Both the position numbers and the translations under genes were made by a program. A stretch of DNA of 51,387 nucleotides, taken from an uncultured Bacilli bacterium (GTDB lineage Bacteria; Bacillota_I; Bacilli_A; RF39; UBA660). Position 1 is the first letter of the stretch. Every line of letters begins with the position of its first letter. The DNA lies in assembly GCA_949451605.1 (NCBI GenBank), contig CASTSB010000009.1, positions 1-51,387 on the forward strand. The letters are read 5' to 3'. The notes under the pieces are model-generated. The model saw only the letters and a list, made by a program, of their open reading frames with translations. It searched no databases and had not been told where the DNA came from. Shown here piece after piece: positions 32,705-51,387 of this stretch.

Positions 32705-33964
32705 CTATCTAATTATATATGGATCTTCTTCTGTTCCAGTTCCTTTACTAATTAAGGTATTAGCATCCATAGTAATAACTGGTCTTATTCTTAGATATTC
32801 ACTAGTAATACTAGCTTTTACTACTCCTCCTACAACTCTATAGGCTGTAGAATCATTTTCTGAATTTGAAGTACCTAGCCAATAAGAGTTACCGTCTGCT
32901 AAATAGTTATAATTTTGACATGCAGCTGAAGATGGAGTATTGCATGAAGGATCAATACTCGCATTCATATAATCACTAACTGTAAGTAGACCTATATTAC
33001 TTGAAATAGTTTCGCTACACTCAATAGAATTATCATGAATTGTATCATTTGGTTTCATTTTACCAACGCACATATCAAATTTAGTAAGATGTGCTTTATC
33101 CTTTTGACTAAGCATATAATATTCATCATCTTTTTCGGTAGTTTTATAAATTTGATCTAATTGTTCTTTTATTCTACTAGATGAGTAATTGTTAACTCCT
33201 GATGTATAACCTAAGGTGTTATTATATCTATCATCAAATGGATAATTAGATCCTTTTGTTTTATTTAATATAAGTGTAATTGTTTTATCTCCATTTACTT
33301 TAACAATTCTCCAAGTTTCTCCATCTAACTTAATATAATTGTTTACATTCTCTCCTCTAAACACATAGGAGTCATTTAATAAATATAGACCATAACCACT
33401 ACCCACTAAATTTTCATCACTTGCAATAACAGATGATAAAAGTTTAGTAGAATATTTATCACCACAAGATAAGAATGGTGTGTATATATATTCATTGCCT
33501 ACTTTTTTAACTTGTACTTTTCCTGTACATGATGTATTCTCTCCTAAGTATTCTGGAAGAGTTTTCATCTTTTCTGCAGCTATTAAATTAGCTACTTCAA
33601 TTTCTACTACTTGAGTCTCATCTATTGGTAGTGAAGATTTATTATCTTGGAAGTAACTTTTGGCTGCATCAGACATTATTTGTTCAACTTGTTCGTATGA
33701 TTTTGCACCGCCATTTACTTTAGATACTAGGAATAATACTATTAATAATAATGCCATACCTACAGCAATAACTATCATTAATTTTATTAGTTTCTTTTTT
33801 ACATCATCATCTTTTTTATTGTTACTTGAATTTTCATTTTCATTATTATTAGAATTAAAGTCTAAATTTTCATCTTCGTACTCGTCAATGCCACCAATTT
33901 CATCATCTTCTTTAGATATATCTGTTTTAATTCCATTAACTTTTTGTGTTACATCATAATCCAT
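32705..33964 (-). CDS. Pilin-like surface protein of the secretion locus with long acidic cytoplasmic head
   Basis: This 419-residue protein has a hydrophilic acidic N-terminus (about 1-55), one membrane span (about 59-82) and an extracellular region. The first extracellular part (AAKSYFQDNKSSLP, then C-x-G-x-V-x-V and a second Cys) resembles the head of the prepilin at 17112-18842. The second part (about 210-419) contains GETWRIVKVNGDKTITLIL, SYWLGTSNSE and LRIRPVITMD, and its end matches the protein at 16236-17093. It is the last gene of the operon, with AAGGAGG before the ATG. I infer a surface or tip component of the machine; the function is unproven. Confidence 0.65.
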   Translation of the reverse strand: MDYDVTQKVNGIKTDISKEDDEIGGIDEYEDENLDFNSNNNENENSSNNKKDDDVKKKLIKLMIVIAVGMALLLIVLFLVSKVNGGAKSYEQVEQIMSDAAKSYFQDNKSSLPIDETQVVEIEVANLIAAEKMKTLPEYLGENTSCTGKVQVKKVGNEYIYTPFLSCGDKYSTKLLSSVIASDENLVGSGYGLYLLNDSYVFRGENVNNYIKLDGETWRIVKVNGDKTITLILNKTKGSNYPFDDRYNNTLGYTSGVNNYSSSRIKEQLDQIYKTTEKDDEYYMLSQKDKAHLTKFDMCVGKMKPNDTIHDNSIECSETISSNIGLLTVSDYMNASIDPSCNTPSSAACQNYNYLADGNSYWLGTSNSENDSTAYRVVGGVVKASITSEYLRIRPVITMDANTLISKGTGTEEDPYIIR

Positions 33965-33981
33965 AGGTTATTTCCTCCTTT

Positions 33982-36177
33982 TTAATTATCGAAGAAGTCA
34001 TCAAAGAAATCATCATCGTCTAATTCATCGTTTAAATTAATGTTTGTTTTATTATAGTCTGACATTTCAGGAATTGCTTCAATCTTTGGTTCTGGATTTA
34101 TAGTTTTTATATTTGAATTAAGCGAGGCATTTTCTTGCTTTTTCTGTTCTTCAGCTTCTTTTTCTTTTCTTTCCTCTTCTTCAAGTTCAGCAATCTTAGC
34201 ATCAATTTTTTTAACTAATTCATCAACATCAAAACCTAAATCGTCATCTTCTTCATCTTTTGAAGATTCTTGAACAGGATTATTAAATTCCTTGTTAGCT
34301 TCATTTGATGTTCTAGCAAAATTTCCATATCCTTTATGTGATAAGAAATCATTAAAATCTTCATCTGGGACTTTATTAAATGGAACTACTCTTGGTGCTG
34401 ACTCTTCTTCATTTAATGCTACAGTTTTTGTACTTTCTTCTTCATCTACAGCATTCATCATTTCTAGAAGCTTTCTTTTCTTTTCACCTTTTACAAATTC
34501 TTTTATATCAAAAGTATGAACTTCTCTTTTTGGACGTGTAGGATATTTAGAAGGTGGATATTTCTTTCCCCAATCTAATTTGAAATATGGAGTAAACTTA
34601 GTTTTAAAAGGTAATTTTCTCATTCTCATTATAATAACTTCAAATTGTTTCATTCTTTGTAGATCAGAAACAGTTACTAAAGGAGTTGAAGCTGTCTTAT
34701 CATCCTTTTTAGATTTTACCTCTCCACACATTTTAGAAATTTCTTCTAAAGCTTTTAATTCAGTAGTAATTAAATAAATTGTATTACCACAGTTACCTCT
34801 GATTGTCTCTGCTTCTTCTTTTCCATATACTGCATCAAGTTGAGCAAAGTTTTGAATAATCATAGTAAATCTTATTCTTCTTGAACGTGCTGCAGTTATC
34901 ATAGTTGTAACGTCTTTTAAAGGTGGCATATTAGCAAACTCATCTAGTAAGAAATTTGTTCTAACTGGTAGTTTTCCACCATGCTTTTGCGCTGTTGCAA
35001 TTAAAGTTTCATAAACTTGTTTTAAGAAAATTGTAACTAACGAATGGTAAGTTTTCTTTTCATCTTGAATTATTATAAAAACAGCTGTTGGTCTTTCTCC
35101 AATAGATGAAAGATCAATATCACTATGAGATAACATCTCACTTAAATTATCACGAGATGAAAATAATTTAACTTTTTGTTTAAATACAGATAAAATACTT
35201 CCTTTTGTTTCAGATGGAGCCATAATTGTACTTGATGCATTGATTGATGCAGCACTTGATGGATCTTTAGCTGCAAAGTATTCTTTGATATAAGTTGAAC
35301 CACCAAATTTATCTTCACCTACTGTTGTAGCAAGGGAAATACTATTAATATTTATTTCTTCTTCTTTAGCATCTTCAAACAATCCTAAGGCAACTCCAGA
35401 GAAGTAATCAGCAGAAGTTTTTTCCCAAAATGGATCTTGATTTTTATTAGATTCATCATACAAAATATTTAAAGCTAAGTCATCTAATAACTCTATTGCT
35501 TTATCTTGATTTCCACTTTTGTACATTTGATAAGGTAAGGTCATTGGATTCCATGCATTACCATTTTGTGGATCACGGAAATTTAAAATTAGAATTTGGT
35601 AACCTTTAGCACGAAGCATGTTACCAGTCTTTTCATAAATTTCACCCTTAGGGTCTGTTATAATCATTGATTCTCTTGCTTTTGCTAAAGAGTGAACTTG
35701 AGGTAGGATTACAGTTTGAGTTTTACCTGAACCAGTTGCTCCTATTACTAAAGAATGGAATTCAGAGTTATCAACCCACATTTCCTTATCATTTAAAATT
35801 AATGGAATACCTGCGGCTTTAGATCTTGGATCAGTTATTTTAACTTGTTCTAATTCTGGCTTTATTTCTTTTTCTTTAGCCCATCTTGAATAACCTTTAT
35901 CTTTCTTTTCTGTTGTTATTCCAAAGCCTTTTTCTCTTTCAAAAAAGTATGAGCCAACACTTACGAAAAGTCCTCCTAAGCAGAAAAAATAAAGTAATAG
36001 TGTATCAAATAGATATTCACTACTAAATGCAGGAAATGGATTAAGTCCAGATAGTGTTCCAGTTTGAGCAAATGTTGATAAATTAACAATTGCAATTGCA
36101 ACGATATAAAGTAGAAAAACGGCAAATATTATAAATATTGTCAAATCATCTTTATCTACGCGAAATTTAAATTTCAT
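33982..36177 (-). CDS. Type IV coupling protein, VirD4/TraG family
   Basis: This 731-residue ATPase would select substrates and feed them to the type IV channel. Two membrane spans (about 12-34 and 56-78) precede the motor domain. Walker A is GATGSGKT (146-153), followed by IITDPKGEIYEKTG, and Walker B is FLLDEFANMP (409-418) with ARSRRIRFTMIIQNFAQLD after it. The C-terminal 170 residues are a charged low-complexity tail ending in ELDDDDFFDDFFDN, an unusual acidic end. No relaxase gene is present in the window, so the substrate is unknown. GGAAG precedes the ATG. Confidence 0.93.
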   Translation of the reverse strand: MKFKFRVDKDDLTIFIIFAVFLLYIVAIAIVNLSTFAQTGTLSGLNPFPAFSSEYLFDTLLLYFFCLGGLFVSVGSYFFEREKGFGITTEKKDKGYSRWAKEKEIKPELEQVKITDPRSKAAGIPLILNDKEMWVDNSEFHSLVIGATGSGKTQTVILPQVHSLAKARESMIITDPKGEIYEKTGNMLRAKGYQILILNFRDPQNGNAWNPMTLPYQMYKSGNQDKAIELLDDLALNILYDESNKNQDPFWEKTSADYFSGVALGLFEDAKEEEININSISLATTVGEDKFGGSTYIKEYFAAKDPSSAASINASSTIMAPSETKGSILSVFKQKVKLFSSRDNLSEMLSHSDIDLSSIGERPTAVFIIIQDEKKTYHSLVTIFLKQVYETLIATAQKHGGKLPVRTNFLLDEFANMPPLKDVTTMITAARSRRIRFTMIIQNFAQLDAVYGKEEAETIRGNCGNTIYLITTELKALEEISKMCGEVKSKKDDKTASTPLVTVSDLQRMKQFEVIIMRMRKLPFKTKFTPYFKLDWGKKYPPSKYPTRPKREVHTFDIKEFVKGEKKRKLLEMMNAVDEEESTKTVALNEEESAPRVVPFNKVPDEDFNDFLSHKGYGNFARTSNEANKEFNNPVQESSKDEEDDDLGFDVDELVKKIDAKIAELEEEERKEKEAEEQKKQENASLNSNIKTINPEPKIEAIPEMSDYNKTNINLNDELDDDDFFDDFFDN

Positions 36178-36232
36178 TTTACTACTTCCTTTCTGTCAAT
36201 ATTATAACTTATTATTATTGAACTGTCATTAT

Positions 36233-37012
36233 TTATTGGTTTGAAATTAGTATTTTAAAGTCATTATCAATAAATTTATATAAAATATTGATTGGTTGTT
36301 CCGTTGAATATTTTGCACATGTTAAAAGTATTTCATAATCACCATCATCATCAACATCTATTATAGAATTAATGTAAGGTTTGGTTCCGTTTGTACCTTC
36401 ATATTTTTCTATTGATTTATACAAATTGTATATCTTATTATTTTTTACAACAAATACAAAAGAGAAAACTTGGCTTGGTTCAAAGTCGATTGGAAAAACA
36501 TTACTTACTATATAAATGTCTTCTACTTGTCCATCATTATCTAAGTCAACTTCTGTATGAGTATTAACTGTAAGTTCTGTAGAAGAAGTTATATCATTTT
36601 TATTAAAGACATCTTCTACATAATTGTAATTTTCTATATCTTTTACTTCGAAGCTTTTTGTTTTTATATCATAATTTGAGTTTATACCAAGAAAGTTTTC
36701 AGTATAGTTTTGAGCTACTTTATTATCATCAAATAAGTACCATTTATCATCATGCCATACTAAATAATCATCTTTATATTCGTTATCTAAAAAAACTTTG
36801 AATTTTTTCCAATTATATTTTTCTATACTTGACTCTAATTTTAGATTAACCCATCTATTATTGGAATATTCCCAAGTAGTACCATCGCCTACTAGAATAG
36901 TAGCTTCTTTTTTTCTGTTTTCAATAGAGTCTTTTCCGATTAACGTATACATTAGTACAAAAAATACTACTAAAATTATGAGTAAAACAATATATCTTTT
37001 ATTATTTTTCAT
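36233..37012 (-). CDS. Membrane-anchored extracellular protein with Asp-rich calcium-type loops
   Basis: This 259-residue protein has an N-terminal membrane span (about 7-25) and an extracellular domain with two D-x-D-x-D-G motifs (DLDNDGQVED and DVDDDGDYEI) like those in FG-GAP or dockerin-type calcium loops. Aromatic-rich strands (WEYSNNRWVNL, WHDDKWYLFDD) precede them. No family is recognised. It lies between virD4 and the wall hydrolase in the operon, with AGGTGA before the ATG, so it is probably an accessory surface part of the secretion machine. Confidence 0.6.
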   Translation of the reverse strand: MKNNKRYIVLLIILVVFFVLMYTLIGKDSIENRKKEATILVGDGTTWEYSNNRWVNLKLESSIEKYNWKKFKVFLDNEYKDDYLVWHDDKWYLFDDNKVAQNYTENFLGINSNYDIKTKSFEVKDIENYNYVEDVFNKNDITSSTELTVNTHTEVDLDNDGQVEDIYIVSNVFPIDFEPSQVFSFVFVVKNNKIYNLYKSIEKYEGTNGTKPYINSIIDVDDDGDYEILLTCAKYSTEQPINILYKFIDNDFKILISNQ

Positions 37013-37024: not shown

Positions 37025-39385
37025 TTAATTTGCTTTGAAATATGCATAAGTACTTGTATTAACCCAGTTATATCTAGACCACATATCAGTTGATGAACTA
37101 CCTGGATCCATCATTGTTACATTTTGTCCAGAAGTACCTGCTACTGCTACCCAGTGCTGACCTGTTCTTCCTTTAACTTCAGCTACTACATAGTAACCTT
37201 GACTTAATAAATTATTAAGAGTATTTATTTTTTGTTCTCTTGAGTAGCCTGATACTCCAATTTTATTTACATATCTAAAGTTTGGAGCTACTGTACTTAC
37301 AGATCCCCATACGAAGTTTGCACCAATAAAGCCTCCATGTTTATTTAAGTATTCTACAAATGTTCCAGGATTAAATTCTCCTTGGATATTAGTTTGAACT
37401 CCACTACGAGCTATTTGCATAGCAATTGATGTAGCAAGACATCCAGCTGACTTAATTGTATGACTACTTCTACCTAATGGTACACTTATCCATGGACCTT
37501 CATATTGTTTCCATGATGCAAAGTCTCCTGTAACAGCTGAGGAACAGTTCTCATTTGAAGTATTACAGCTCATTGACTCGATATCACTTGCTCCTAGATT
37601 TCTTGTAGAGTTATATACTTGTAATAAAATTTGTTTATAATTGTAACCTTCATTAGCTAATTTTGTAAAAATATTTTGTTCTGTTGATGTATATCCTGAA
37701 TATATTACGTATCCTTGGGAATTTACTAGGACTTGTCCCATTGTTTCATTTGCTATACTTCTAAGTCTTGAGTCTGTTGCAAGTGGGGGCTTTTGATATC
37801 CTGTATAAGATAGTCCACTATGGACTTGTCCCCATTGTCCATCATTAGATGAACATCCTTTGTCAGGATCACAGTATACTTGGTCTTGGGTACTTGCTGC
37901 TGCTTGTAAAACCCAGGTACCATTTTCTTCTTTTAGAGTTCGCCATCCTCCCATATCAGTAGAACGAGCTAAGATATAGCTTCTTGCTGCTACCATTTGG
38001 GCTTTAATTGCTTCCTCAGGAGCTCCAGAACCTATTTCTGCATATGCTACTCCTAAGATATATTTTTCAAAGTCTACTAATTCTTCACCTTCTAATGGTT
38101 GTCCAAATGTTCCACCGTAGTTGTGACCATTGCCAGAACCAGTTTGCATAAGTCTAACTTTCAAATTATTTATATTTAGTTCTTTGGTAATATTTCCTTT
38201 TCCATATATATAGAAACCTTTAATATTGTAAGAGCAACTTCCTATAGCTGAACATGAAGATGTAGGTCTATAGCCTATTAAATCATAATATCTATTGATA
38301 TAATCATAAATTTCTTCAATCATATATTTTCTTTCTTCTTCAGAAGAGTTTTTTACATATTTAGGGAAGATACTATTTATTAAATTATTTTGGTAATAAT
38401 CAGCATTATAACTTGTTGAATCTTTTTCAAACATTGCATCAGCTATTTCTCTAATATTACCTTTATTCATACTATTATAAGTAATTTTTTCATTATGTTC
38501 ATGAATTATATGATAAGTAGCAACAACTAGTAATGCATCAACATTTTTTCCATCTTTTAAGAAGTCTTCTTTTACTTCATTAATTCGCTTATAAAATTCT
38601 GCTGACTCTTTACTTGATGCTTCAAAGTAGACACCACCAGTTTCTCCACCACTTACTTGACTTGCTCCAAAGGCATCTTCAAAGTCAGATGTTGATCCTG
38701 TAAGAGCAGCAAATACTGCTAGAAGTATTAATAAGATTAATATAATTGGTCCTCCAGCCATAAGGGCTATTTTTACTGGCATACTAATTTTTATTGTTCC
38801 GTCTAGAAGTTTTCCATCTTGTTTTTCTTCATTATTTTGATCTTGATTCTCGTCTTTTTCTTTGTCTTTCTTTTTCTTACCACCAAGCATACCATCCATT
38901 ACACCATCAGATAATGAAGAAGAGGAATCTCCTCCTATATTAGAAGAGCTTCCTCCTGCATTTGTGGCACCTTGTGCTGCACCTGCTCCTGCAGAAGCAC
39001 CAGTAGAAGTTGCGCCTGCGCCAGTTCCAGCACCTGCTCCTCCACCCATTCCGCCTGCTATATCTATAGCTTTATCGGCTGTATCAACTAGTCCTGAATC
39101 ATCAAGCTTTTTAGCAGCTTTTCCCATTCCTGGAATTTTATTTAAGGCTTCTCCACCTTTATTTAGAATTTCATCTCCTGCTTTAGTTTGAGCGGCAAGG
39201 TCAACTGCCTTTCCTCCTACAGGTCCACCAAAGTAAGTAGCGGCACCTTTAGCTGCAGTTTTGGCAACTTTTTTTGAAGATTCTTGCTCTTCAGCTTTTT
39301 TATCTTGATGCATTTCAGCAACAGTCTTATTGTATTCTTCTTTATTAGATTCACTATTTTGTCTATTGCTTTTGTATGATGCCAC
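37025..39385 (-). CDS. Membrane-anchored wall hydrolase: SpoIID-like plus C39-like peptidase
   Basis: This protein of about 786 residues has a Gly/Ala/Ser-rich cytoplasmic N-terminus (to about 200), one membrane span (about 204-232), a helical region, a SpoIID-like domain (about 410-600) with EKYILGVAYAEIGSGAPEEA and KAQMVAARSYILARS, and a C-terminal papain-like domain of C39 type (about 620-786) with SAGCLATSIAM, QHWVAVAG and MMDPGSSS. SpoIID cuts peptidoglycan glycan strands; C39-like domains cut peptides. Together they could open the wall for the channel, the role of VirB1-type enzymes. GTG at 39385 is preferred because AGGTGAG lies just upstream of it. Confidence 0.82.
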   Translation of the reverse strand: MASYKSNRQNSESNKEEYNKTVAEMHQDKKAEEQESSKKVAKTAAKGAATYFGGPVGGKAVDLAAQTKAGDEILNKGGEALNKIPGMGKAAKKLDDSGLVDTADKAIDIAGGMGGGAGAGTGAGATSTGASAGAGAAQGATNAGGSSSNIGGDSSSSLSDGVMDGMLGGKKKKDKEKDENQDQNNEEKQDGKLLDGTIKISMPVKIALMAGGPIILILLILLAVFAALTGSTSDFEDAFGASQVSGGETGGVYFEASSKESAEFYKRINEVKEDFLKDGKNVDALLVVATYHIIHEHNEKITYNSMNKGNIREIADAMFEKDSTSYNADYYQNNLINSIFPKYVKNSSEEERKYMIEEIYDYINRYYDLIGYRPTSSCSAIGSCSYNIKGFYIYGKGNITKELNINNLKVRLMQTGSGNGHNYGGTFGQPLEGEELVDFEKYILGVAYAEIGSGAPEEAIKAQMVAARSYILARSTDMGGWRTLKEENGTWVLQAAASTQDQVYCDPDKGCSSNDGQWGQVHSGLSYTGYQKPPLATDSRLRSIANETMGQVLVNSQGYVIYSGYTSTEQNIFTKLANEGYNYKQILLQVYNSTRNLGASDIESMSCNTSNENCSSAVTGDFASWKQYEGPWISVPLGRSSHTIKSAGCLATSIAMQIARSGVQTNIQGEFNPGTFVEYLNKHGGFIGANFVWGSVSTVAPNFRYVNKIGVSGYSREQKINTLNNLLSQGYYVVAEVKGRTGQHWVAVAGTSGQNVTMMDPGSSSTDMWSRYNWVNTSTYAYFKAN

Positions 39386-39407
39386 TTTTCTCACCTACTT
39401 CTTTTTA

Positions 39408-41198: not shown

Positions 41199-41797
41199 CC
41201 TGCCATCACCGTCCCAAACTCAGTTGATGCTCCTCCATTTAAGAAGTTTTCCATTACAACTCGTAAGTCACCATTAGTAACTTGTGATGCATTTAATCCA
41301 CATTGGGCAAGTGCATTTATCATGAATCTTACTCTTTTTTGTAATAAGTCAGGATCTTTTGCTTTAAATAAGAAGAAGTATTCTGTATCAACTATATTAT
41401 TATTAATAAAACTTTGTCCTTTATTTATATCTTGCATGATAAGTTTTCTAATAGCAGGAGATGGTGTGTCATTGAATAGTAATTGAAGTTGTGACATATA
41501 AACTGATATATCTACTGGTCTATCTGCTACTACTAACCAAAATTCAAAGTCTATTTGATTATAAAAATTCTTTAGACTTATTAATATATTATCTTGTAGT
41601 GAAGGGTCCAAGATAAAGATGTTTCTTGGAGCTATCTTCACACCTGTTACTTTTTCATTACTTGTTGTAATGATCATTCCATTTTGTATTCCTTTTAGTG
41701 GTAACCAATCTTCTGTAAATCCACTACCTATTTTTTTTGCCAACTTTATAACACCATCCTCTCCAACGGTAAGTTTGCCTGCTAGTAACAAACTCAT
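41195..41797 (-). CDS. VirB4 N-terminal domain as a separate protein
   Basis: This protein of up to 200 residues resembles the N-terminal region of VirB4/TraC-type ATPases: EDWLPLKGIQNGMIIT, then VTGVKIAPRNIFILDPS and the FWLVVADRPVDISVYMSQL segment. It has no Walker motifs. It probably binds the next gene's product to form one VirB4 unit. The first ATG at 41797 overlaps the PrgI-like gene by 74 bases and has no ribosome-binding site; a later TTG at 41743 is possible, so the true start is uncertain. Its stop overlaps the next start (ATGA), implying coupled translation. Confidence 0.75.
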   Translation of the reverse strand: MSLLLAGKLTVGEDGVIKLAKKIGSGFTEDWLPLKGIQNGMIITTSNEKVTGVKIAPRNIFILDPSLQDNILISLKNFYNQIDFEFWLVVADRPVDISVYMSQLQLLFNDTPSPAIRKLIMQDINKGQSFINNNIVDTEYFFLFKAKDPDLLQKRVRFMINALAQCGLNASQVTNGDLRVVMENFLNGGASTEFGTVMAG

Positions 41798-42038
41798 ATA
41801 ATTCGATTATTATATTTAACATATTATGGTAATAAGGTACAGGCATTACTAAGAATGCACATACTATTGCCGGAGAAAGTATCAGTATTGTTACAAATGT
41901 TGATGACAAAGGCATAAACGCTAGTAACGTTACTGAGATTAAAACACCAGTAGAAAACAATATTAGGTCAAATGGTCTAAAGATTCCTAGAATCAATTTA
42001 CCATTTTTTGTATTAGCTGGTATTAAATAATTATTCAT
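41724..42038 (-). CDS. PrgI/VirB3-like inner-membrane protein
   Basis: This 104-residue protein has two adjacent hydrophobic segments (about 28-46 and 49-67) after the N-terminal YLIPANTKNGKLILGIFRPF block, which matches the PrgI family of Gram-positive type IV systems. It ends YRWRGWCYKVGKKNR. PrgI/VirB3 proteins associate with VirB4 at the membrane, and the gene lies directly before the VirB4 pair as expected. Confidence 0.82.
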   Translation of the reverse strand: MNNYLIPANTKNGKLILGIFRPFDLILFSTGVLISVTLLAFMPLSSTFVTILILSPAIVCAFLVMPVPYYHNMLNIIIELYEFVTSRQTYRWRGWCYKVGKKNR

Positions 42039-43988: not shown

Positions 43989-44015
43989 ATTACTCACCTC
44001 TTTTTTATCTATTTA

Positions 44016-45062
44016 TTATTGTAGTCCGCATAAAGGATCTGACATAAATCCGAATATTTCTAATAAAAGTTCTACTAATTCTGGAATAAAGAATAATAGA
44101 AGAGCTAGAACTAATCTTGTCATTAACTTTTTATAAGCTTTTTGCATTGATTCATCATCACTAGCAAGTAAGGCTTTAATAAAATCAATAGAGCTCATAA
44201 CTAAAACAATCATTGGTCCAAGTATTTTTAGATAATCTAATAATTTTTTTAGTAACCATGCTGGAGAATTAGGATTTGCAGGATTTCCTAATATAGAATT
44301 ACAATCGTCATCTGCTCCAAAAGACGCATTATAGTTTAATGCTTTTTCTCCTTGACCATCATTTTTACTTAAATCATTTTTACAATACTTTTTATTACTT
44401 GTTAAATAATATTTATAATTTCCTTTTTCATAAGAAACACATCTATATATATTAATTAAATTATCACTATTAGTAAATGATTTTTTTATTAAATTTTCTT
44501 CTATTGATATGTCTGAATTTTTATCTAATTTAATATTCTCATTTATATTTATAAATTTATTACCATCTATTGACCATTCATATGTATTGTCACTAAGTTT
44601 TCTAACAGCTGGAATAAAATAACTTTTATCTTTATATTTTCCAATACTAGTAGTAATTTTTGTATCAACTACATTTAATTTGTTATTATAAGAATTTAAC
44701 TTAGTGCAAGTACCATTACATAGTTCATGATCAATGCTTCCAACAAATACTGTTGTAAACATTTCATTTTCTTCTATTGTAAGTGTTGGACAAACTACTT
44801 TATTATTAGAAGTTTTTGAAGATGAAATAAATTTAGATTTAAAATCTTCACTATTATACCATTCTTTATTATTAAATTTCTTACCATTTGTGAATGGTAA
44901 TCTAACATCTTTCTTAGTTAAATTATAAATTAATTCAATATCATTATAGTTATATTTACACTCTACTAAATCATTATTTTTTTCTAAAGCAAATGTATCA
45001 ATTGGATTAAATAAAATAATTGTTAGTAATAAAATTATAGTTGTTATTAATTTGTTTTTCAT
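44016..45062 (-). CDS. Secreted protein with C-terminal VirB2/TrbC-like pilin domain
   Basis: This 348-residue protein has a signal peptide (about 1-25, KLITTIILLLTIILFNP), an extracellular domain of about 245 residues with six or more cysteines, and a C-terminal part (about 275-340) with hydrophobic segments. That part (DFIKALLASDDESMQKAYKK to RLVLALLLFFIPELVELLL) matches the free VirB2-like protein at 45149-45484. It is thus a two-domain pilin variant, possibly a minor or tip subunit. The start at 45062 has GGAGTGG upstream, and the gene begins the second transcription unit of the locus. Confidence 0.72.
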   Translation of the reverse strand: MKNKLITTIILLLTIILFNPIDTFALEKNNDLVECKYNYNDIELIYNLTKKDVRLPFTNGKKFNNKEWYNSEDFKSKFISSSKTSNNKVVCPTLTIEENEMFTTVFVGSIDHELCNGTCTKLNSYNNKLNVVDTKITTSIGKYKDKSYFIPAVRKLSDNTYEWSIDGNKFININENIKLDKNSDISIEENLIKKSFTNSDNLINIYRCVSYEKGNYKYYLTSNKKYCKNDLSKNDGQGEKALNYNASFGADDDCNSILGNPANPNSPAWLLKKLLDYLKILGPMIVLVMSSIDFIKALLASDDESMQKAYKKLMTRLVLALLLFFIPELVELLLEIFGFMSDPLCGLQ

Positions 45063-45081
45063 AAAAGACCACTCCAGATAC

Positions 45082-45090
45082 ATTATAACA
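45082..45090 (-). promoter_or_regulatory. Extended -10 promoter of the type IV secretion operon
   Basis: TGTTATAAT on the minus strand is an extended -10 (TGn-TATAAT) lying after the upstream terminator. No good -35 is visible. It would start the unit running from 45062 to 32705. Confidence 0.6.
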
Positions 45091-45148: not shown

Positions 45149-45484
45149 TTATTTTGCTTTTTCCCAGCAAGTACTCCATCCAGTTGTATTTCCATCTTCT
45201 GCACCTTTTGCAACGATGTCCATAACTAATGAAACGATTGTTACTACAAAGAATATTAATGCAGCATAGATACATCTTTTAATAAGTCTACTTTGTGCAG
45301 CTTTAATTTCTTTATCATCACTTGCAATAACTGCTTTTCCTAAATCAATAATTCCAAAGATTAGTAATACAATTGGGATAATAATTTGTACGATTGGGTA
45401 TACTCCTTGTCTTAGTACTCTAACTATAGGAAGTAAGCCACCGCATCCATCATTGATATTTCCAATTTGAATTAAATTTGACAT
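45149..45484 (-). CDS. VirB2/TrbC-like pilin
   Basis: This 111-residue protein has hydrophobic segments at about 30-50 and 70-93 separated by a short loop (KAVIASDDKEIKAAQSRLIK). It has two cysteines near its N-terminus, one in the middle and one near its C-terminus. The two-span design fits VirB2-type pilins that polymerise into the extracellular filament or channel. It has its own consensus promoter (45509-45537), GGAGAG site and terminator, as expected for a highly expressed subunit. No conventional cleavable signal peptide is seen. Confidence 0.78.
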   Translation of the reverse strand: MSNLIQIGNINDGCGGLLPIVRVLRQGVYPIVQIIIPIVLLIFGIIDLGKAVIASDDKEIKAAQSRLIKRCIYAALIFFVVTIVSLVMDIVAKGAEDGNTTGWSTCWEKAK

Positions 45485-45541: not shown

Positions 45542-46573
45542 TTACTTTCTAAATAAGCCAAAAATTCTATTTCCATTATTTGAAGATTGTCCATCTTTTA
45601 ATAATCTTAATTTTTTAGCAAAATCTAGAATAACTTCATTTCTTTTACGATCATTTAAGGGTGGCATGTTATATAAGATATTTAAATTTGACTCATATTC
45701 GAATTCTGATACTTCTTTTTGAGTTAATAAGCTTTTATTTAATATTACTTTTTTATCTTTTAAAGTGCTTATTATAACTTTATTTCTTCTCATTAAATTA
45801 TTTAACTTTATAACACTTGGCTCTATCAAATAGATTATTGTTGTACAAAGATTTTGTACCTTACAATCATTTAAATCTATAAGTATAATATCTTTTGAGT
45901 TAAGTCTTGATATTAACTCTTTTACTTCATTTGAAGTAGTTGAAATCATACTTTTATCCCCAAACGATAAAAAATCTGTTTTATCAATTTCTAATGCAAC
46001 TACTTTATCTTTATATAAATATGTTAATTCTTTTTTTAACATATAGATAAGACTAGTTGCTCCAGCGTTTAAAGTTATATTTTGAAAACCTACTATTATT
46101 TGCTCATTTTCTATTTTACTAACATTTCCTACATCAATAGATGGTGATATAGCTTCTTCAGGAGAAATATTATTCTTTCTCATTTCTGTTTCAGCCATTT
46201 GTTTAATATTTTCTACATCCTTTAATGTATTGGATTTGGTAAGTAAATATTTAACTCCTTCTACATTAGTTGTAAAGTTATAGATTCCAACATTAATTAA
46301 ACGAGATAAAAATCCAGATGTACATAGATTACTTCCTTCTTTAAAATAAAAGATAATCTTATCTGGATTTATTTTATCAGCTATTGTCTTGTATGTAAGA
46401 GGTACATCATAATCTCTTAGAGCTGTAACATCAATAATCATTTTATTAAAGAAGAAGTTTTGAAACATTGTAACTATTTCAGTAGCATCATATGTTCCAC
46501 TAATACTTTTAATAATGTCTATATCTAAATTTTGCAAATCATTTTGCTGTTGGTTTAAGATAAGCACATTCAT
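45542..46573 (-). CDS. TadZ/CpaE-like ParA-family protein with degenerate P-loop
   Basis: This 343-residue protein has a receiver-like N-terminal half (about 1-115) and a ParA/MinD-like C-terminal half (about 155-310). That is the layout of TadZ/CpaE, which places the pilus machine in the cell. The expected KGGxGKT loop reads GFQNITLNAGATSLIYML (residues 162-179) and lacks the catalytic lysine, so ATP hydrolysis is unlikely. The later strand IILIDLNDC fits the Walker B position. It is the last gene of the Tad module and ends just before the VirB2-like pilin promoter. Confidence 0.75.
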   Translation of the reverse strand: MNVLILNQQQNDLQNLDIDIIKSISGTYDATEIVTMFQNFFFNKMIIDVTALRDYDVPLTYKTIADKINPDKIIFYFKEGSNLCTSGFLSRLINVGIYNFTTNVEGVKYLLTKSNTLKDVENIKQMAETEMRKNNISPEEAISPSIDVGNVSKIENEQIIVGFQNITLNAGATSLIYMLKKELTYLYKDKVVALEIDKTDFLSFGDKSMISTTSNEVKELISRLNSKDIILIDLNDCKVQNLCTTIIYLIEPSVIKLNNLMRRNKVIISTLKDKKVILNKSLLTQKEVSEFEYESNLNILYNMPPLNDRKRNEVILDFAKKLRLLKDGQSSNNGNRIFGLFRK

Positions 46574-46602: not shown

Positions 46603-47052
46603 TTACCTCTCAATTATAGTTTTTGTATCTCCTGTTACTCTAAATACATTTAAATTAGGCATTATATTTTTAATAATAGGTATATCTATAGTTATTTGTG
46701 TAGCAATCTTGTAATAAACTTTGTCTTTCATATCTTTAGTGTCAGTTGTTTCTTTATCTCTAGAAGCTACTTTTTTATAACAATATCCTAATCCATTTGG
46801 GCAAGTATATCCTTCATCTTCCATTTTTGGAGGATTACTTCTATCATATCCTATTTGTAACATATAATCTTGTATTATAGAATTAACTTCACTATTTGTA
46901 ATACCTTCATATTGTTCAATAGTTGAAATAATTTTATTTTTAACTCTAAAGGCTTTAGTATAATTTACGTTAAATGCCATATAGCCTGATACTATTACTA
47001 AGAATACTACAACAATAACGATATTAACTAAGCCTCCCATGGCATCACGCAT
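46603..47052 (-). CDS. TadE-like minor pseudopilin
   Basis: This 149-residue protein starts MRDAMGGLVN and has one N-terminal membrane span (about 8-28). An extracellular domain with two cysteines (TCPNGLGYC) ends in a beta-rich stretch VFRVTGDTKTIIER. The size, topology and position between the Flp-like pilin and TadZ fit TadE/TadF minor pilins, although no clear TadE signature can be claimed. AGGGTGA precedes the ATG. Confidence 0.6.
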   Translation of the reverse strand: MRDAMGGLVNIVIVVVFLVIVSGYMAFNVNYTKAFRVKNKIISTIEQYEGITNSEVNSIIQDYMLQIGYDRSNPPKMEDEGYTCPNGLGYCYKKVASRDKETTDTKDMKDKVYYKIATQITIDIPIIKNIMPNLNVFRVTGDTKTIIER

Positions 47053-47067: not shown

Positions 47068-47256
47068 TTATCTAATAATATATTGAACAGTACCACCAAC
47101 ACGGTTTCCATCACTCTTATCATCTGAGATGTTTCCCCATTGACTAGTGATAGATTCTTGAATATTTGGCCACATTAACCAGAAGAAACCGATAATGGCA
47201 GCGATTGCTATCATTGTAATAACTGTTAATTGTAATTCACCTGTTGCTGCTTTCAT
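47068..47256 (-). CDS. Flp-like major pilin
   Basis: This 62-residue protein begins MKAATGELQLTVITMIAIAA, with one hydrophobic segment (about 9-29) containing Glu near its start, and a short polar tail. The size and layout resemble Flp pilins; a Gly-Glu pair at residues 6-7 could be the prepilin-peptidase site. ATG at 47256 is chosen because AAGGATGTGA precedes it. It has its own promoter upstream, as expected for an abundant filament subunit. The prepilin peptidase gene is not in the window. Confidence 0.7.
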   Translation of the reverse strand: MKAATGELQLTVITMIAIAAIIGFFWLMWPNIQESITSQWGNISDDKSDGNRVGGTVQYIIR

Positions 47257-47287
47257 TATTATCACATCCTTTCCTTATGCTAATTTA

Positions 47288-47321: not shown

Positions 47322-48131
47322 TTATACACTAAACATCATCATCATAGAGATTAAAATTATAAGCATAACTCCAATACCTGTGCAAACTAACATAACCATA
47401 GTTTGTTGTTCCATATGATTTAGTCTTTCTTTATATTTTGTTTCTCTTGCTTTATTTTGAAGAGAAGATACGGTTCTTGAAAACATCATAAGTCTTTCTT
47501 GTTTTCTTTCTTGAGAACCAATTCCTAAACGATATAATAGACGCATCATTCTCATAGAATCTCTTACGGGATAAGTGTTAGCAAATTCCATATAAGGATC
47601 TACTGAGGAATCTCCAGCATTAATTCTATCTATCATTTTTCTTAGTCCTGGTTTAAAAATATCTGGTGCATCTTCAATCGATTTACCAATTGCTACTGGA
47701 ACAGTATAATGCTGAATTAATATTTCTAAACTTTTTAAGTAATATGGAAGCATTATATCAATTTCTTGTAAATGCCTTTTATAATATCCTTTTAATTGAG
47801 TATAAGGCATTTTAAACATTAAAAACGCAACGAATGCTGATAATACTAAATTTAAAAAGAATTGTGAATTTATGAAATCTAATGAACTTCCTCCACTCAT
47901 AGTTAGAGCTAAAATCATAAAGAATGCAATGATTGCATATGTAACTCTTTTCATATAAAGTTGGTCTGCATCTGCTTCTTCTCCATAACGAGCGTAAACT
48001 AAGAATGTATAGTCTTCTTCTCTTATTGCCTCTAAATATTTTTCATTATCTGCAAAGAATTTATTTTTATCTATAGTGTTATTATAGATTAAAATAAATA
48101 ATATTATTGCACCTACTAAAATTATCTCCAT
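47322..48131 (-). CDS. TadC-like inner-membrane platform protein
   Basis: This 269-residue type II/IV secretion platform protein (GspF-related) has hydrophobic segments at about 1-18, 68-85, 90-110 and 243-265 and a cytoplasmic helical domain with LPYYLKSLEILIQHYTVPVA. It pairs with TadB to form the platform that TadA rotates. Its ATG overlaps the tadB stop (TAATG), implying coupled translation. Confidence 0.85.
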   Translation of the reverse strand: MEIILVGAIILFILIYNNTIDKNKFFADNEKYLEAIREEDYTFLVYARYGEEADADQLYMKRVTYAIIAFFMILALTMSGGSSLDFINSQFFLNLVLSAFVAFLMFKMPYTQLKGYYKRHLQEIDIMLPYYLKSLEILIQHYTVPVAIGKSIEDAPDIFKPGLRKMIDRINAGDSSVDPYMEFANTYPVRDSMRMMRLLYRLGIGSQERKQERLMMFSRTVSSLQNKARETKYKERLNHMEQQTMVMLVCTGIGVMLIILISMMMMFSV

Positions 48132-49033
48132 TATTCAGCACCTACATTCTCATTATAATATTTTTCTCCTTTAATAAGGAAATATGTATTTACAACTATA
48201 ACTCCATGTAAGAGGATTTGTATGAAGAACTTATCTAGCAAAATTAAATATGTTTCTCTTCCTAATAAGTATTGTACTAACATGACCATCAGATAAAGCA
48301 TAATACCAAATTGTAAAAATTGTTTATGGAATGTTTGACGCTCAATTCTATCTCTATATACACTTTCAATTAGCATATCTATATCTGATTGCATATTATC
48401 AAGTGAATCAGCAGTGTTTTGAGCACCTTCTTTTGTAATTTGTAAGAACAATTGATGCATGTTCTTTACTATATAGTATGGATATAAATTTGACATATAT
48501 TCTAAAGACTCATCGATTGTTCCGTTTTTATAAGCTAAATCAATCATATGATTAACATCACTTAATACTGGATCTTCTAAGACTCCTGATGATCTTACAC
48601 CTTCTAAGGCTTTTACAAATGATTGTGTAGTTGCAAATTCCATAATAGTATTTGAAGTATAAACTTGAATTTGTTCAAATAAGAATTCACTATATACTCT
48701 ATTACATCTTAAATATGCAAGGTATGGAACAAACATAACAGATACTATCATATAAATAATAGTTACAATCAAATTGTAAAAATAAAGGTATGATACAACT
48801 CCTGCAAAACCTGCAATTAATGCAACTTGCATTGTATATTGTTTTACTGTATATTCTTGCCCTAATTCTTTTGTTTTTTCTCTTACGGTTTTAAAAGAGT
48901 AAGGAGCAAATTTATTGTACATATCTTGTACTTGTGTTGTAACATATTTTCCTACGTTTTCACCTTTATAGTTTCTATAAAGGTAGATTGCTAGTACGAA
49001 TACTACAATCGTAAATAATTCTTCAATAAACAT
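48131..49033 (-). CDS. TadB-like inner-membrane platform protein
   Basis: This 300-residue GspF-domain protein has an N-terminal span, a pair of spans at about 72-112, a helical domain (about 120-230) with FLFEQIQVYTSNTIMEFATT and VKALEGVRSSGVLEDPVLSD, and two C-terminal spans. It follows tadA closely and overlaps tadC. TadB and TadC together anchor the pilus base. Confidence 0.86.
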   Translation of the reverse strand: MFIEELFTIVVFVLAIYLYRNYKGENVGKYVTTQVQDMYNKFAPYSFKTVREKTKELGQEYTVKQYTMQVALIAGFAGVVSYLYFYNLIVTIIYMIVSVMFVPYLAYLRCNRVYSEFLFEQIQVYTSNTIMEFATTQSFVKALEGVRSSGVLEDPVLSDVNHMIDLAYKNGTIDESLEYMSNLYPYYIVKNMHQLFLQITKEGAQNTADSLDNMQSDIDMLIESVYRDRIERQTFHKQFLQFGIMLYLMVMLVQYLLGRETYLILLDKFFIQILLHGVIVVNTYFLIKGEKYYNENVGAE

Positions 49034-49049: not shown

Positions 49050-50372
49050 CTAATTTGTTTGAATATTTATATTAGGGACTTGAACTGGCGATGGTTGTTG
49101 AACAGTTTGAACTGGTTGAGGAACTGGTCTTACAACAGGTTGTGGTTGTTGAGTTGAGGCTGGCATTGCAGGTCTAACTGATTGTTGAACTGCTGGTCTT
49201 GAGGCTTGTTGTACTTGTCTATTTACAGTTCCTTGTTGTACTGTTTGACTTTGACTTGTCATATTTTGATAATCCTTTTTAGCCTGTTCCATATTATTTT
49301 CTTTGTATGACATTTCTTTTGGAAGGCTTTTTATAACATTTCCTAAGTTAATATTTTGATTTTCTAAGTATTCAATTAAATGATCACTAGGCCTTACCAT
49401 TTCTTCTTTTCCCATTTGTTTTCTATAAATTGTATGGGCAACTGGTTCATTATTGTCGTCTACATAGAATTCTGTTACTTCATCAACTTCACGATGAAAC
49501 TTTCCATATTCTTTACTGTAATATGCTTTTATATGAATTCCTAATTGGACATATCTATAAATTGTATTTAAGAATTGATTAACATCTAAATCTGTTTCCA
49601 TCAAACTGTATAAACGATAAGGTATTGCGGATGCTTTATCAGCATGGATTGTTGATAAGATGTTGTGTCCTGATGAAATAGAGTTACGTACAGCAGAAAC
49701 TGCTTCTGCACTACGAACTTCTGATAGTAGAATCCATTTTGGATTTTGACGCATACAAGTAACAAGTACATCTGTATAACTTGCGACATTGTTTGTCTTC
49801 ATAGCAACGATATCTCTTTGTGGAAATATCTTATCCAAGTGCAATTCTAGTGTATCTTCAATAGTTATTATTTTTTCGTTATTTTTGGTATGTGATGCTA
49901 GATATTTAACAAACTCAGTTTTACCTGAACCAGTTTCTCCGGCAACCATTATATTGCAGTGACCTTCAACGCATTTAATTAGAAAGTCATGTATATTTTC
50001 GGTAAAATAATCTTCTTTTAATAGTTTGTCTTTTTCTAGTCTTATCTTAGCTGGAGTTTTACGTATAACTAATGCTATACCGTTTGTTGCGATTGATTGA
50101 TGAACAAAGTTCATACGTAACTCAGCTGATTCTGCATCTAGAAAAGGTTTAGCATTATTAAATGTTGTTCCCATAACGTTTGAGCATTGAAATGCTAATT
50201 TTTCTACGAACTCTGTAGTTAGTCCTTCTATTTCTACTCTCATTGAACCTTGTGTTAAGGAACGAATCCAAATTTGACCACCATTGTCATATGAAATATC
50301 TGTTATATCATCATCATCTAACAATTGTCTAAAAGGTCCAAAATCAAGTTTATCAAAAATACTTTCATTCAT
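49050..50372 (-). CDS. TadA/CpaF secretion ATPase with a Pro/Gln-rich tail
   Basis: This 440-residue hexameric ATPase drives Tad pilus assembly. It has Walker A GETGSGKT (145-152), an Asp box around IITIEDTLEL, Walker B ILLSEVR (214-220) and the His box GHNILSTIHA. The core ends near residue 340, earlier than many homologues. The last 70 residues or so are low-complexity, rich in Gln, Pro and Val (QQGTVNRQVQQASRP, PQPVVRPVPQPVQ), which is unusual for a cytoplasmic motor. GGGGTGA precedes the ATG. Confidence 0.93.
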   Translation of the reverse strand: MNESIFDKLDFGPFRQLLDDDDITDISYDNGGQIWIRSLTQGSMRVEIEGLTTEFVEKLAFQCSNVMGTTFNNAKPFLDAESAELRMNFVHQSIATNGIALVIRKTPAKIRLEKDKLLKEDYFTENIHDFLIKCVEGHCNIMVAGETGSGKTEFVKYLASHTKNNEKIITIEDTLELHLDKIFPQRDIVAMKTNNVASYTDVLVTCMRQNPKWILLSEVRSAEAVSAVRNSISSGHNILSTIHADKASAIPYRLYSLMETDLDVNQFLNTIYRYVQLGIHIKAYYSKEYGKFHREVDEVTEFYVDDNNEPVAHTIYRKQMGKEEMVRPSDHLIEYLENQNINLGNVIKSLPKEMSYKENNMEQAKKDYQNMTSQSQTVQQGTVNRQVQQASRPAVQQSVRPAMPASTQQPQPVVRPVPQPVQTVQQPSPVQVPNINIQTN

Positions 50373-50385
50373 TTTTTATCACCCC

Positions 50386-51189
50386 TTAATTTTCAGTCCA
50401 GATTGTTACTCTATTTATCCACTCTTTTAATGCTTCACTTGTTGCTTCTAGTTCTCCTGGTTCTGCCTTCATACTTTCATTTGTTGGTACTGGTATTAAT
50501 TTTGAATCATATGTCCTTAAGTATTCTGCTTTTTTTAGTAATATGTAATATTCTTCTGGAAGAGCAAAGATTACCATGGCTGGAGTTCTTGTCTCATCTG
50601 GGTTTTCAAATACTGGAAGCCCATCTTGATCTCTTACAGCAATTACTTTTACATTTGAAAGCAACTTTCCAAGCATGACTTTATCATCTCTTGATGGGGC
50701 TTGGTCTCCTTCAAGAAGTGTTTCAACCTTTAAATAAATATCGATATAGTTTCCTGGATAAATTGAATTTCCATATGATGATTCTGTTGTTACTGGAAGA
50801 TTATATAAAACATAACCTGACGGATAATCTAAAATAACATTAGCAGGTAAATCATCTTTTTCTACTACAGTTCTTTTGTAAAATAAGCTTCCTTCTGGGA
50901 TAGTAGTATCTGCATTTGAATATTTATCAATGACACTAGCTCTATCATATAATACATCACCTTCTAGCATTGAAGGAGGTACTTCAGTTATTCCTACCAT
51001 ATCTTCAGTTATTTGAATTCCTGAGACAATTTGAGTTTTTGCATATGGAACTTTAACAGGTTTAATTGATGCATTTATTCTCATTCGATAACAAAATAGT
51101 AATATTCCTAAAGATAATATTACTCCTAAAATAGTAACTGTATTTTTATTTACAATTATTTTCTTGAATCCAGCTATTAAATTACCCAT
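50386..51189 (-). CDS. CpaB/RcpC-like pilus assembly protein with SAF domain
   Basis: This 267-residue protein has one N-terminal membrane span (about 17-34) and an extracellular SAF domain (VPYAKTQIVSGIQITEDMVG) followed by the RcpC/CpaB domain (PGNYIDIYLKVET, PAMVIFALPEEYYILLKKAE). In Gram-negatives it supports the secretin; here, with no outer membrane genes seen, it probably stabilises the pilus base at the wall. It opens the Tad operon from a promoter at 51239-51266. A second copy lies just upstream. Confidence 0.85.
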   Translation of the reverse strand: MGNLIAGFKKIIVNKNTVTILGVILSLGILLFCYRMRINASIKPVKVPYAKTQIVSGIQITEDMVGITEVPPSMLEGDVLYDRASVIDKYSNADTTIPEGSLFYKRTVVEKDDLPANVILDYPSGYVLYNLPVTTESSYGNSIYPGNYIDIYLKVETLLEGDQAPSRDDKVMLGKLLSNVKVIAVRDQDGLPVFENPDETRTPAMVIFALPEEYYILLKKAEYLRTYDSKLIPVPTNESMKAEPGELEATSEALKEWINRVTIWTEN

Positions 51190-51238
51190 TTTATTCTTCC
51201 CCTCTTTTTTAGTTACACTGTCTATTATACCTATACTA

Positions 51239-51266
51239 ATTTTAACACATTTGAGTGAAAAGTCAA
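51239..51266 (-). promoter_or_regulatory. Promoter of the cpaB-tadABC operon
   Basis: TTGACT (51261-51266) and TAAAAT (51239-51244) on the minus strand are 16 bases apart, between a terminator and the cpaB-like start. Confidence 0.7.
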
Positions 51267-51301
51267 TTCGTGCTTCATAAAAATAATCAAATTTTGAGAA
51301 T

Positions 51302-51331
51302 AAAAAAGAAGACTTTCTTGAAGTCTTCTTT
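51302..51331 (-). terminator. Terminator of the upstream cpaB-like gene
   Basis: The minus strand has an 11-bp stem, AAAGAAGACTT with AAGTCTTCTTT, with a five-base loop, followed by T residues. Confidence 0.82.
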
Positions 51332-51332
51332 C

Positions 51333-51387
51333 CTATGTTTCTGTCCAGATTGTTACTTTATTTATCCAGTCCTTTAATGTGTTACTT
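51333..51387 (-). CDS. C-terminus of a second CpaB-like protein (cut by window edge)
   Basis: The last 17 codons read SNTLKDWINKVTIWTET, nearly the same as the end of the complete CpaB-like protein (SEALKEWINRVTIWTEN). A tandem paralogue with its own terminator therefore starts beyond the window. Confidence 0.75.
   Translation of the reverse strand, partial: SNTLKDWINKVTIWTET

Follow-up and report, generated by a model that had tools for sequence, protein, structure and literature searches.

Why should a bacterial chromosome carry the genes of a Tad pilus and those of a conjugation-type type IV secretion system (T4SS) in a single block? The question is raised by contig CASTSB010000009.1 of assembly GCA_949451605.1, from an uncultured Bacilli bacterium (GTDB order RF39, family UBA660), the whole of which, 51,387 bp in length, is the window analysed here, and which belongs to a 1.33-Mb draft assembly of 22 contigs (genome G000). 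Along its minus strand, from position 51189 to 32705, runs an 18-kb contact-and-secretion locus in the order CpaB-TadA-TadB-TadC-Flp-TadE-TadZ-VirB2-VirB2-VirB6-PrgI-VirB4N-VirB4C-SpoIID/C39-lipoprotein-VirD4-surface protein, confirming the one-strand arrangement, split VirB4 included, that an earlier note on this DNA had described. We conclude that the locus is probably a plasmid-type conjugation machine, combining Tad and T4SS, that has been domesticated and has lost its relaxase; it would now serve cell contact and substrate delivery, a role that we infer.

The locus is a fixed part of RF39 genomes

The locus is a chromosomally fixed part of RF39 Bacilli genomes, as the earlier note had proposed. 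A scan of GTDB genomes with VirD4 yielded 397 relatives, the best 80 of which were kept. VirD4 relatives include Candidatus Faecimonas and Candidatus Onthousia, both Bacilli incertae sedis in the NCBI taxonomy; Onthousia we take to be a member of RF39. An excerpt of PMC8035907 places Faecimonas in family CAG-611 of order RF39. The 100 loci chosen by VirD4 comprised 20 from the same family and 80 named ones, the latter reaching only to about TadZ. VirB6, PrgI, VirB4N, VirB4C and VirD4 were colinear in every locus that holds all five (76/76), and TadZ and VirB6 were present together in 55 loci. The exceptions were L049 and L062, which have VirD4 and 10-16 kb of upstream sequence without VirB4C, and L038, L050 and L126, which have VirB6 and 3-8 kb of upstream sequence without TadZ; seven more loci lacking VirB4C end 3.3 kb or less from VirD4. 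The housekeeping genes that the earlier note had placed on the 32-kb side are those for a rhodanese, a VTT-domain protein and RmuC, and at least one of them was found in 72/100 loci (57/80 named and 15/20 same-family, some loci being cut short). When 12 loci were chosen by VirB4C, VirD4 adjoined it in eight; the other four consist of two contig ends, G020, where VirD4 lies beside the Tad genes, and G112, with none in the stretch examined.

Both modules are widespread among the 116 genus representatives of the family. With matches of more than 350 bits counted as strong TadA and of more than 430 bits as strong VirB4C, each gene was found in 97/116 representatives, both in 87, Tad only in 10, VirB4 only in 10 and neither in nine (Fisher p 4.5e-4 for co-occurrence, uncorrected for kinship or assembly gaps). 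Where TadA and VirB4C share a contig, 38 of the 41 pairs lie 6.4-11.9 kb apart, all 38 colinear, and the other three lie 36-48 kb apart; rare adjacency in relatives, which by the earlier note's own terms would have counted against it, is thus not what these pairs show. In 46 of the 87 genomes with both genes they are on different contigs: at least 11 of these are truly apart, in that the contig runs on for longer than the widest gap among the near pairs and still lacks the second gene, and 35 are undecidable from the contigs. The modules are adjacent in 38 of the 52 resolvable cases. Each of the 20 named genomes that were searched, including two Onthousia, also has TadA. A class-wide search of 296 genomes returned VirB4C at 895 bits or more only in this family (35 genomes); five family genomes are listed there as lacking it, and the best match outside the family reached 319 bits at 33% identity.

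The split of VirB4 is a family-wide signature. VirB4C open frames measure 595-621 amino acids (aa) in 94 of the 97 strong matches, the remaining three being pieces at contig ends, and the weaker VirB4 matches in the same genomes have frames mostly of about 770-864 aa. Walker A is kept in all distinct relatives above 500 bits: 112/112 for VirB4C and 104/104 for VirD4 (length above 560 aa), and 46/46 for TadA (above 330 aa). As a separate observation, G115 (L333:7490-12495) has an unsplit VirB4 of 778 aa, immediately followed by PrgI and the two halves of a split VirB4, which puts two VirB4 types in tandem in one operon.

The locus is vertically inherited in RF39. As housekeeping comparator we used AspS, whose gene is some 10 kb away from the locus in the window, while many relatives have the two on different contigs; it was present in 15/22 genomes, of which three had only a paralogue of about 44% and G085 was omitted (its VirB4 was not taken), and 11 were used. 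Pairwise protein distances correlated with those of AspS at 0.88 for VirB4C, 0.86 for TadB and 0.78 for TadA (11 genomes each; 0/2000 permutations as high), and at 0.90 for VirD4 (10 genomes; 1/2000 permutations as high). As to the congruence of TadA and VirB4, for which the earlier note had asked for a test, both track AspS; TadA and VirB4C correlate with each other at 0.60 (19 genomes), as against 0.90 for VirB4C and VirD4, and the TadA tree described below does not pair RF39 with mobile-element TadA.

No relaxase, integrase, transposase or replication gene was found among the 40 open reading frames (ORFs) of the window scanned with Pfam, the other small ORFs being unscanned. At the genome level, neither PF03432 (MobP/VirD2-type) over its cut-off nor PF18555 (MobL) was found in G000. 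PF03432 passed its cut-off in 2/24 locus-bearing and 1/8 locus-free genomes, with sub-cut-off matches in the locus-bearing G018 and G072; PF18555 was found in 0/24 locus-bearing genomes, in 1/8 locus-free ones (G043) and not in G029. To this extent, the genome-wide search having covered MobP and MobL only, the earlier note's statement that no relaxase, integrase or transposase is seen stands. The locus is not patchily distributed, unlike a conjugative plasmid or an integrative and conjugative element (ICE), given VirB4C in 97/116 genera and a common flank. Because the modules are adjacent, their distances track a housekeeping gene and no MobP or MobL relaxase was found in this genome, we regard the locus as vertically inherited and not as an ICE beside a Tad locus; the common flank also led us to reject an ordinary ICE in that position.

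Components of the locus

The genes are given below with the evidence for each name.

50386..51189, minus strand: CpaB/RcpC, Tad pilus assembly protein, 267 aa (PF16976 at 1.3e-6, exactly at the cut-off; TIGR03177 at 7e-5, below the cut-off)
49050..50372, minus strand: TadA/CpaF-VirB11 family ATPase, 440 aa (PF00437 at 2.9e-29; NCBIfam VirB11 at 9e-36 and TadA at 4e-30)
48131..49033, minus strand: TadB-like membrane platform protein, 300 aa (family profile against a Priestia plasmid T2SSF protein, 3e-14)
47322..48131, minus strand: TadC-like membrane platform protein, 269 aa (family profile at the TadC position of the Priestia plasmid, 4e-17, and of pLS20, 8e-5)
47068..47265, minus strand: Flp-like pilin with a non-canonical prepilin leader, 65 aa (conserved MKxATGEL start in an 11-sequence alignment)
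46603..47052, minus strand: TadE-like minor pilin, 149 aa (13-sequence alignment: short start, invariant G6, then a hydrophobic helix)
45542..46573, minus strand: TadZ/CpaE-like protein with a predicted N-terminal alpha/beta domain and a ParA-like domain, 343 aa (AlphaFold model, mean pLDDT 79, pTM 0.52)
45149..45484, minus strand: VirB2-like pilin a, two long helices, 111 aa (PF18895 T4SS_pilin at 0.0015, below the cut-off)
44016..45083, minus strand: VirB2-like pilin b with an N-terminal extracytoplasmic region, 355 aa (PF18895 at 0.0062, below the cut-off)
42066..43997, minus strand: VirB6/TrbL-like polytopic channel protein, 643 aa (PF19597 TrbL_4 at 6.8e-7, above the cut-off)
41724..42038, minus strand: PrgI/VirB3-like membrane protein, 104 aa (position; family profile at the same place in other T4SS loci, e.g. 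L247 at 3e-16)
41195..41797, minus strand: VirB4 N-terminal half, encoded on its own, at most 200 aa (overlaps PrgI; start uncertain)
39408..41198, minus strand: VirB4 C-terminal ATPase half, 596 aa (NF045975, the Mbov_0397 model, at 1.7e-106 over model positions 295-891, under the cut-off)
37025..39394, minus strand: membrane-anchored cell-wall protein with a SpoIID domain and a C-terminal C39-like stretch, 789 aa (PF08486 at 2.1e-11)
36233..37012, minus strand: bitopic membrane or lipoprotein-like protein, 259 aa (sequence; profile match in 66/100 loci)
33982..36177, minus strand: VirD4 coupling ATPase of the CD1115 family, 731 aa (NF045973 at 308 bits, cut-off 250; PF02534 at 8.9e-56)
32705..33964, minus strand: bitopic surface protein, 419 aa (profile match in 74/100 loci)
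30399..32648, minus strand: housekeeping flank of rhodanese, VTT-domain protein and RmuC (Pfam)

Seven of these proteins (TadB, TadC, Flp, TadE, TadZ, PrgI and VirB4N) have no library match over any cut-off and were named from gene order, length, membrane pattern and the profiles of relatives, TadZ also from its predicted model. The NCBIfam VirB11 and TadA scores of the window's TadA are both far under those models' own cut-offs, and the TadB counterpart on the Priestia plasmid matches PF00482 at 3.8e-5, slightly under the cut-off. The TadA ATPase, the TadB/TadC platform and CpaB are all present, the platform recognised through profile matches to its plasmid counterparts and not through a Pfam match of its own, as is a Gram-positive conjugative T4SS set of the MPF_FA/FATA type (VirB4, VirD4, VirB6, VirB3/PrgI and a wall hydrolase). 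With the VirB4N family profile, VirB4N was recognised as a gene of its own in L247 (8e-23), L251 (1.5e-15) and L331 (3e-20), and the SpoIID/C39 profile gave a match in 83/91 loci having VirB4C and VirD4, the C39-like end having been assigned by eye from the sequence.

For TadZ, the second half of the predicted model gave ParA/MinD matches (ParF: Z 13.9, 161 residues, root-mean-square deviation (rmsd) 3.1). The model could also be compared across both domains with 3fkq, a published TadZ structure (246 residues, Z 11.2); because the rmsd is 20, domain placement in the model differs from that in 3fkq. PDB sequence-profile searches gave no match for TadZ and one, at E 0.77, for TadB. Among the 14 aligned relatives of VirB2a, five match PF18895 at E<=0.01 (best 1.6e-5), a threshold that unrelated membrane families pass in up to 3/14, and a fold search with the predicted model of pilin a returned no clear PDB match. 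The VirB2-like tandem was followed through the 55 loci with TadZ and VirB6: it has two ORFs in 47, three in three, four in one and a single ORF in four, so that 51/55 loci have at least two.

Other features of this genome lie outside the locus. A large DUF285/BspA-type leucine-rich repeat protein is encoded nearby (window 28178-30349), and far from the Tad genes, at window 17112-18842, is the gene of a protein of 576 aa that carries the pilin methylation motif PF07963 at its N-terminus. On contig C10 of G000 (12721-14382, L257) there is a separate PilB-type ATPase, with two pilin-like genes adjoining on the opposite strand, which constitutes a second type IV filament system.

Genes beyond the window edge

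The contig stops at 51387, and what follows is visible in relatives alone. Upstream of CpaB, near relatives have genes for a DUF5411 protein and a large secreted protein, for a sortase and for an Ig-like surface protein, which the window's own surface protein at 32705..33964 resembles, as well as for a membrane protein of about 518 aa. Further out, L171 has a SpoU methylase, a DUF6568 protein and a TPP enzyme; in this one relative scanned further, neither a relaxase nor an integrase was found beyond CpaB, just outside the window, where their presence would have refuted the earlier note. In L154-L156 and L170-L172, genes at the sortase place and genes of about 900-1130 aa upstream of CpaB recur by position and size (the Pfam scan covering L171); they are probably the adhesin part of the locus.

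Plasmid precedents and the origin of the locus

The pairing of Tad genes with a conjugation-type T4SS has precedents in Gram-positive conjugative plasmids, and the earlier note's premise that Tad and VirB machines are normally separate is therefore not supported: plasmids of the pLS20/pZB18 type have TadA and TadB/TadC-like genes beside VirD4, VirB6 and, where that part was read, VirB4, and the element L331 shows nearly the RF39 gene order together with a MobL relaxase. On pLS20, a standard conjugation model, the order is a thioester adhesin, small genes, tadA, TadB- and TadC-like genes, a TadE-like gene, VirD4, VirB6, DUF5592, VirB4C and a MobP2/mobL relaxase, with profile matches for TadB (6e-3, weak), TadC (8e-5), TadE (1e-2, weak), VirD4 (5e-66), VirB6 (1e-8) and VirB4C (1e-38, 633 aa). 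A Bacillus velezensis plasmid resembles pLS20 in layout; Enterococcus faecium pZB18 gave TadA, TadC, VirD4 and PrgI matches in the part examined; and a Priestia plasmid has DUF5411, CpaB (3e-46), TadA, TadB (3e-14) and TadC (4e-17), and some 12 kb upstream of these it encodes a protein of conjugative DNA transfer.

Next to tadA of pLS20 (NC_015148.1 9446-12971, L263), genes annotated as hypothetical weakly match the DUF5411, TadB, TadC and TadE profiles. Judging from these sequences, pLS20 may encode a Tad-like filament. Excerpts of PMC8092201, PMC8014075 and PMC11730352 describe Gram-positive systems such as pLS20 as lacking pili, and a passage of PMC11730352 mentions a pLS20 virB11. That a plasmid so described encodes TadA together with TadB- and TadC-like genes upstream of VirD4 is a point that can be tested in Bacillus subtilis. 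Among the matches listed in the open-licence literature there is no account of a Tad-T4SS locus in RF39, nor of Tad genes in pLS20.

In a quick, unrooted VirB4C tree with long branches, RF39 is sister to a split-VirB4 clade of two other Bacilli families (SH-aLRT 99). A member of that clade, L330/L331 (genome G582, contig C7, Bacilli family f19), is a plasmid-like element. On L331 the genes for a surface protein, a DUF5411-like protein and TadA are followed by two membrane genes, which stand at the TadB/TadC places and are unmatched by profiles, and by one for a small membrane protein; next come Flp-like (3e-4), VirB6, PrgI, VirB4N and VirB4C, and after these the genes of an M23 hydrolase, of ArdC and of the MobL relaxase (2e-14). 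In G029, TadA-B-C-VirB6-PrgI-VirB4C-VirB4N lies near an ArdC-type gene. Tad loci also occur alone: 14 of the 15 loci around TadA matches outside the family had no T4SS match in the 6-20 kb taken. RF39 TadA had seemed to group with such standalone Tad loci, a grouping that we dropped, because once four rows of great length are excluded the three groups do no more than stand apart from one another. From gene order, descent as a unit from a plasmid is favoured; the TadA tree neither supports nor excludes it.

What the locus may do

The account that we think probable, a plasmid-type conjugation machine tamed after losing its relaxase, would begin with a MobL-type conjugative plasmid like L331, from which relaxase and replication genes were lost. 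TadA would drive the TadB/TadC platform to extend a thin Flp/TadE filament that grips a neighbouring cell; TadZ would place the filament, and the surface proteins upstream of CpaB would act as adhesins. The SpoIID/C39 protein would open the peptidoglycan locally, and VirD4 would feed substrate into a channel of VirB6, PrgI, VirB4 and VirB2. Because no cognate relaxase is known, a self-transmissible element is a less likely cargo than protein, or than DNA processed by some nuclease that has escaped recognition. In this way reduced, auxotrophic cells would most probably deliver material to other gut bacteria, or exchange it with them, on contact, in the manner of the Patescibacteria with their type IV pili and relaxase-less T4SS. 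According to an excerpt of PMC6784871, RF39 bacteria are present in a large share of gut metagenomes, uncultured, reduced in genome and auxotrophic; a fixed contact-and-secretion locus in most RF39 genera offers an idea, concrete enough to be tested, of how these bacteria may live at the expense of others.

Several observations weigh against this account. No cargo is known, and contact followed by substrate delivery is put forward as the most economical reading. The search for relaxases covered MobP and MobL, and MobV, MobT, MobQ, MobF and MobC were not searched genome-wide. On the pilus side, the canonical Flp leader (G, with E at +5 and Y at +6) is absent, the Flp-like start being MKxATGEL and the TadE-like one MRxxxG or MKxxxG; Flp-like variants without Y+6 do exist, according to a passage of PMC3244431. 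The 40 proteins of the window that were scanned include neither TadV nor another prepilin peptidase, the search having been confined to them. The naming of the VirB2-like proteins is weak. TadZ distances follow those of AspS at only 0.51 (10 genomes; 15/2000 permutations), the nine genus representatives with neither module must be counted, and both VirB4 proteins of G115 fall inside the RF39 VirB4 group, the unsplit one on a long branch. In a quick, unrooted TadA tree with long branches, RF39, standalone and mobile-element Tad form three separate groups, the tree showing no two of them to be sisters; since RF39 TadA is not paired there with that of conjugative elements, the Tad half may have joined separately.

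The modules can also part. They are apart in at least 14/52 resolvable cases: the three same-contig ones and at least 11 on different contigs (G009, only just, with G012, G020, G041, G042, G063, G065, G110, G115, G119 and G120). G107 and G098 have Tad genes without an adjoining VirB2 or T4SS match and without a chromosomal T4SS, and G058, G082, G113 and G118 have T4SS and VirB2-like genes in assemblies that gave no strong TadA match. In G055 a VirB2-like gene is retained although strong VirB4 is missing. From these single-module genomes, VirB2-like genes mostly travel with the T4SS, and TadZ with Tad. We set aside most Tad-only genomes as evidence of an independent Tad system, because six of the nine examined have a contig end beside TadZ or VirB2 or inside PrgI (a tenth, G088, lay outside that examination).

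An unlikely alternative, that the two modules are independent neighbours, with operon inertia keeping a common Tad pilus for adhesion beside a T4SS that is a relic or has a use of its own, would account for each module being found alone in some genera, for the cases in which they lie apart, for the TadA relatives of other Bacilli families in loci without a T4SS match (some of them short), and for a TadA-VirB4C distance correlation lower than that of VirB4C with VirD4. Mere neighbours would hardly keep their order in 38/38 near-linked cases across genera, nor be paired in conjugative plasmids as well; and rearranged operons combine genes of both modules, TadE and TadZ staying with the T4SS in G120 and VirD4 with Tad in G020. 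The modules are thus linked and probably cooperating, but separable: the adjacency behind the earlier note's combined machine is supported, whereas a single obligate hybrid is not shown, at least two genera having Tad without a chromosomal VirB4 and at least four a T4SS without a strong TadA.

Distinctly unlikely is a machine for DNA import or exchange, in which, as with archaeal Ups pili and Ced or Tad-dependent uptake, the pilus would bind DNA or partners and the T4SS would move chromosomal DNA between kin. An export-side VirD4 is present in the window and adjoins VirB4C in the eight VirB4C-chosen loci noted above, whereas Ced is not known to have a VirD4. ComEC, moreover, is already present in 30/32 RF39 genomes and a separate PilB-type filament ATPase in 8/9 searched, G000 included, so that ordinary filament and uptake genes exist outside the Tad-T4SS locus. 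What speaks for import is the layout of Ups/Ced, a T4-type filament with a conjugation-like importer (excerpts of PMC9905601 and PMC11868833), and Tad pili reported, in a passage of PMC8513845, as essential for DNA uptake in nucleotide-auxotrophic Liberibacters.

We give still less credence to a resident conjugative element that moves DNA in cis, or mobilises plasmids in trans, with a relaxase encoded elsewhere or of a class beyond MobP/MobL. VirD4 and VirB4 are indeed conjugation families, and a MobP-type relaxase passes the cut-off somewhere in two of the 24 locus-bearing genomes, and falls below it in two more; yet 22/24 have no MobP relaxase over the cut-off and 24/24 no MobL, no integrase or replication gene was found among the scanned window ORFs, and the flank common to 72/100 loci and the vertical signal both speak against such an element. 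That mis-assembly or contamination joined a Tad contig to an ICE contig, as might be feared of one contig in a 22-contig draft, has a negligible probability, TadZ and VirB6 lying together in 55 loci whose assemblies, like their hosts, are many and independent.

Comparison with known systems

A canonical Gram-positive conjugative T4SS is expected to have a CwlT-type hydrolase and VirB8. The wall enzyme of the RF39 locus is instead of the SpoIID/C39 type, and no VirB8 was identified in the locus, no profile search having been aimed at it. Standalone Gram-positive Tad/Flp loci share the CpaB-TadA-TadB-TadC cassette, some with a TadE match; tad operons are recorded in Gram-positives in an excerpt of PMC3244431.

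The plasmids come closer. As in RF39, pLS20, pDSYZ and pZB18 have a CD1115-family VirD4 with TadA, TadC-like and TadE-like genes upstream of it on one strand (TadB-like in pLS20 and pDSYZ), together with a VirB6-type p028 protein and DUF5592 (that of pZB18 matches the PrgI profile at 9e-5); pLS20 and pDSYZ have a short VirB4 C part of 631-633 aa, and upstream of its TadA pLS20 encodes a large surface adhesin and a relative of DUF5411 that resembles a pilin. Unlike RF39, all three have a relaxase assigned to type MOBP (in pLS20 the annotation is MobP2/mobL), have no CpaB or TadZ profile match and place VirD4 before VirB6, and the VirB4 of pLS20 is distant (128 bits), on another long branch. L330/L331 has nearly the same gene order as RF39, with Tad genes just upstream of a split-VirB4 T4SS; it differs in its MobL relaxase, ArdC-Toprim protein and SSB-like and ParA-like genes, in an M23 hydrolase in place of SpoIID/C39, in having no CpaB or TadZ match, and in a TadA of a different group.

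By its VirD4-type coupling protein the RF39 window departs from Ups/Ced, which is not known to have one. The Patescibacteria, with type IV pili (T4P) and a relaxase-less T4SS, resemble RF39 in having small auxotrophic monoderm genomes and a chromosomal T4SS with VirB4, VirB6 and PrgI; in comparison, which here is by gene content and not by phylogeny, the RF39 pilus is a Tad module next to the T4SS. Excerpts of PMC12102498 and PMC12857230 describe VirB2-like tandem pilins in Patescibacteria (PF18895 being among the profiles used) and mostly no relaxase, and T4P and T4SS are essential for the epibiotic growth of one species (PMC12857230). A bolder idea, tentative and on balance unlikely, is that RF39 cells depend on a composite organelle, a Tad filament on a relaxase-less T4SS, to take from neighbouring bacteria or inject into them, a Patescibacteria-like lifestyle that would have evolved in parallel inside the Bacilli by the taming of a conjugative plasmid; if true, such dependence would help to explain why RF39 resists cultivation.

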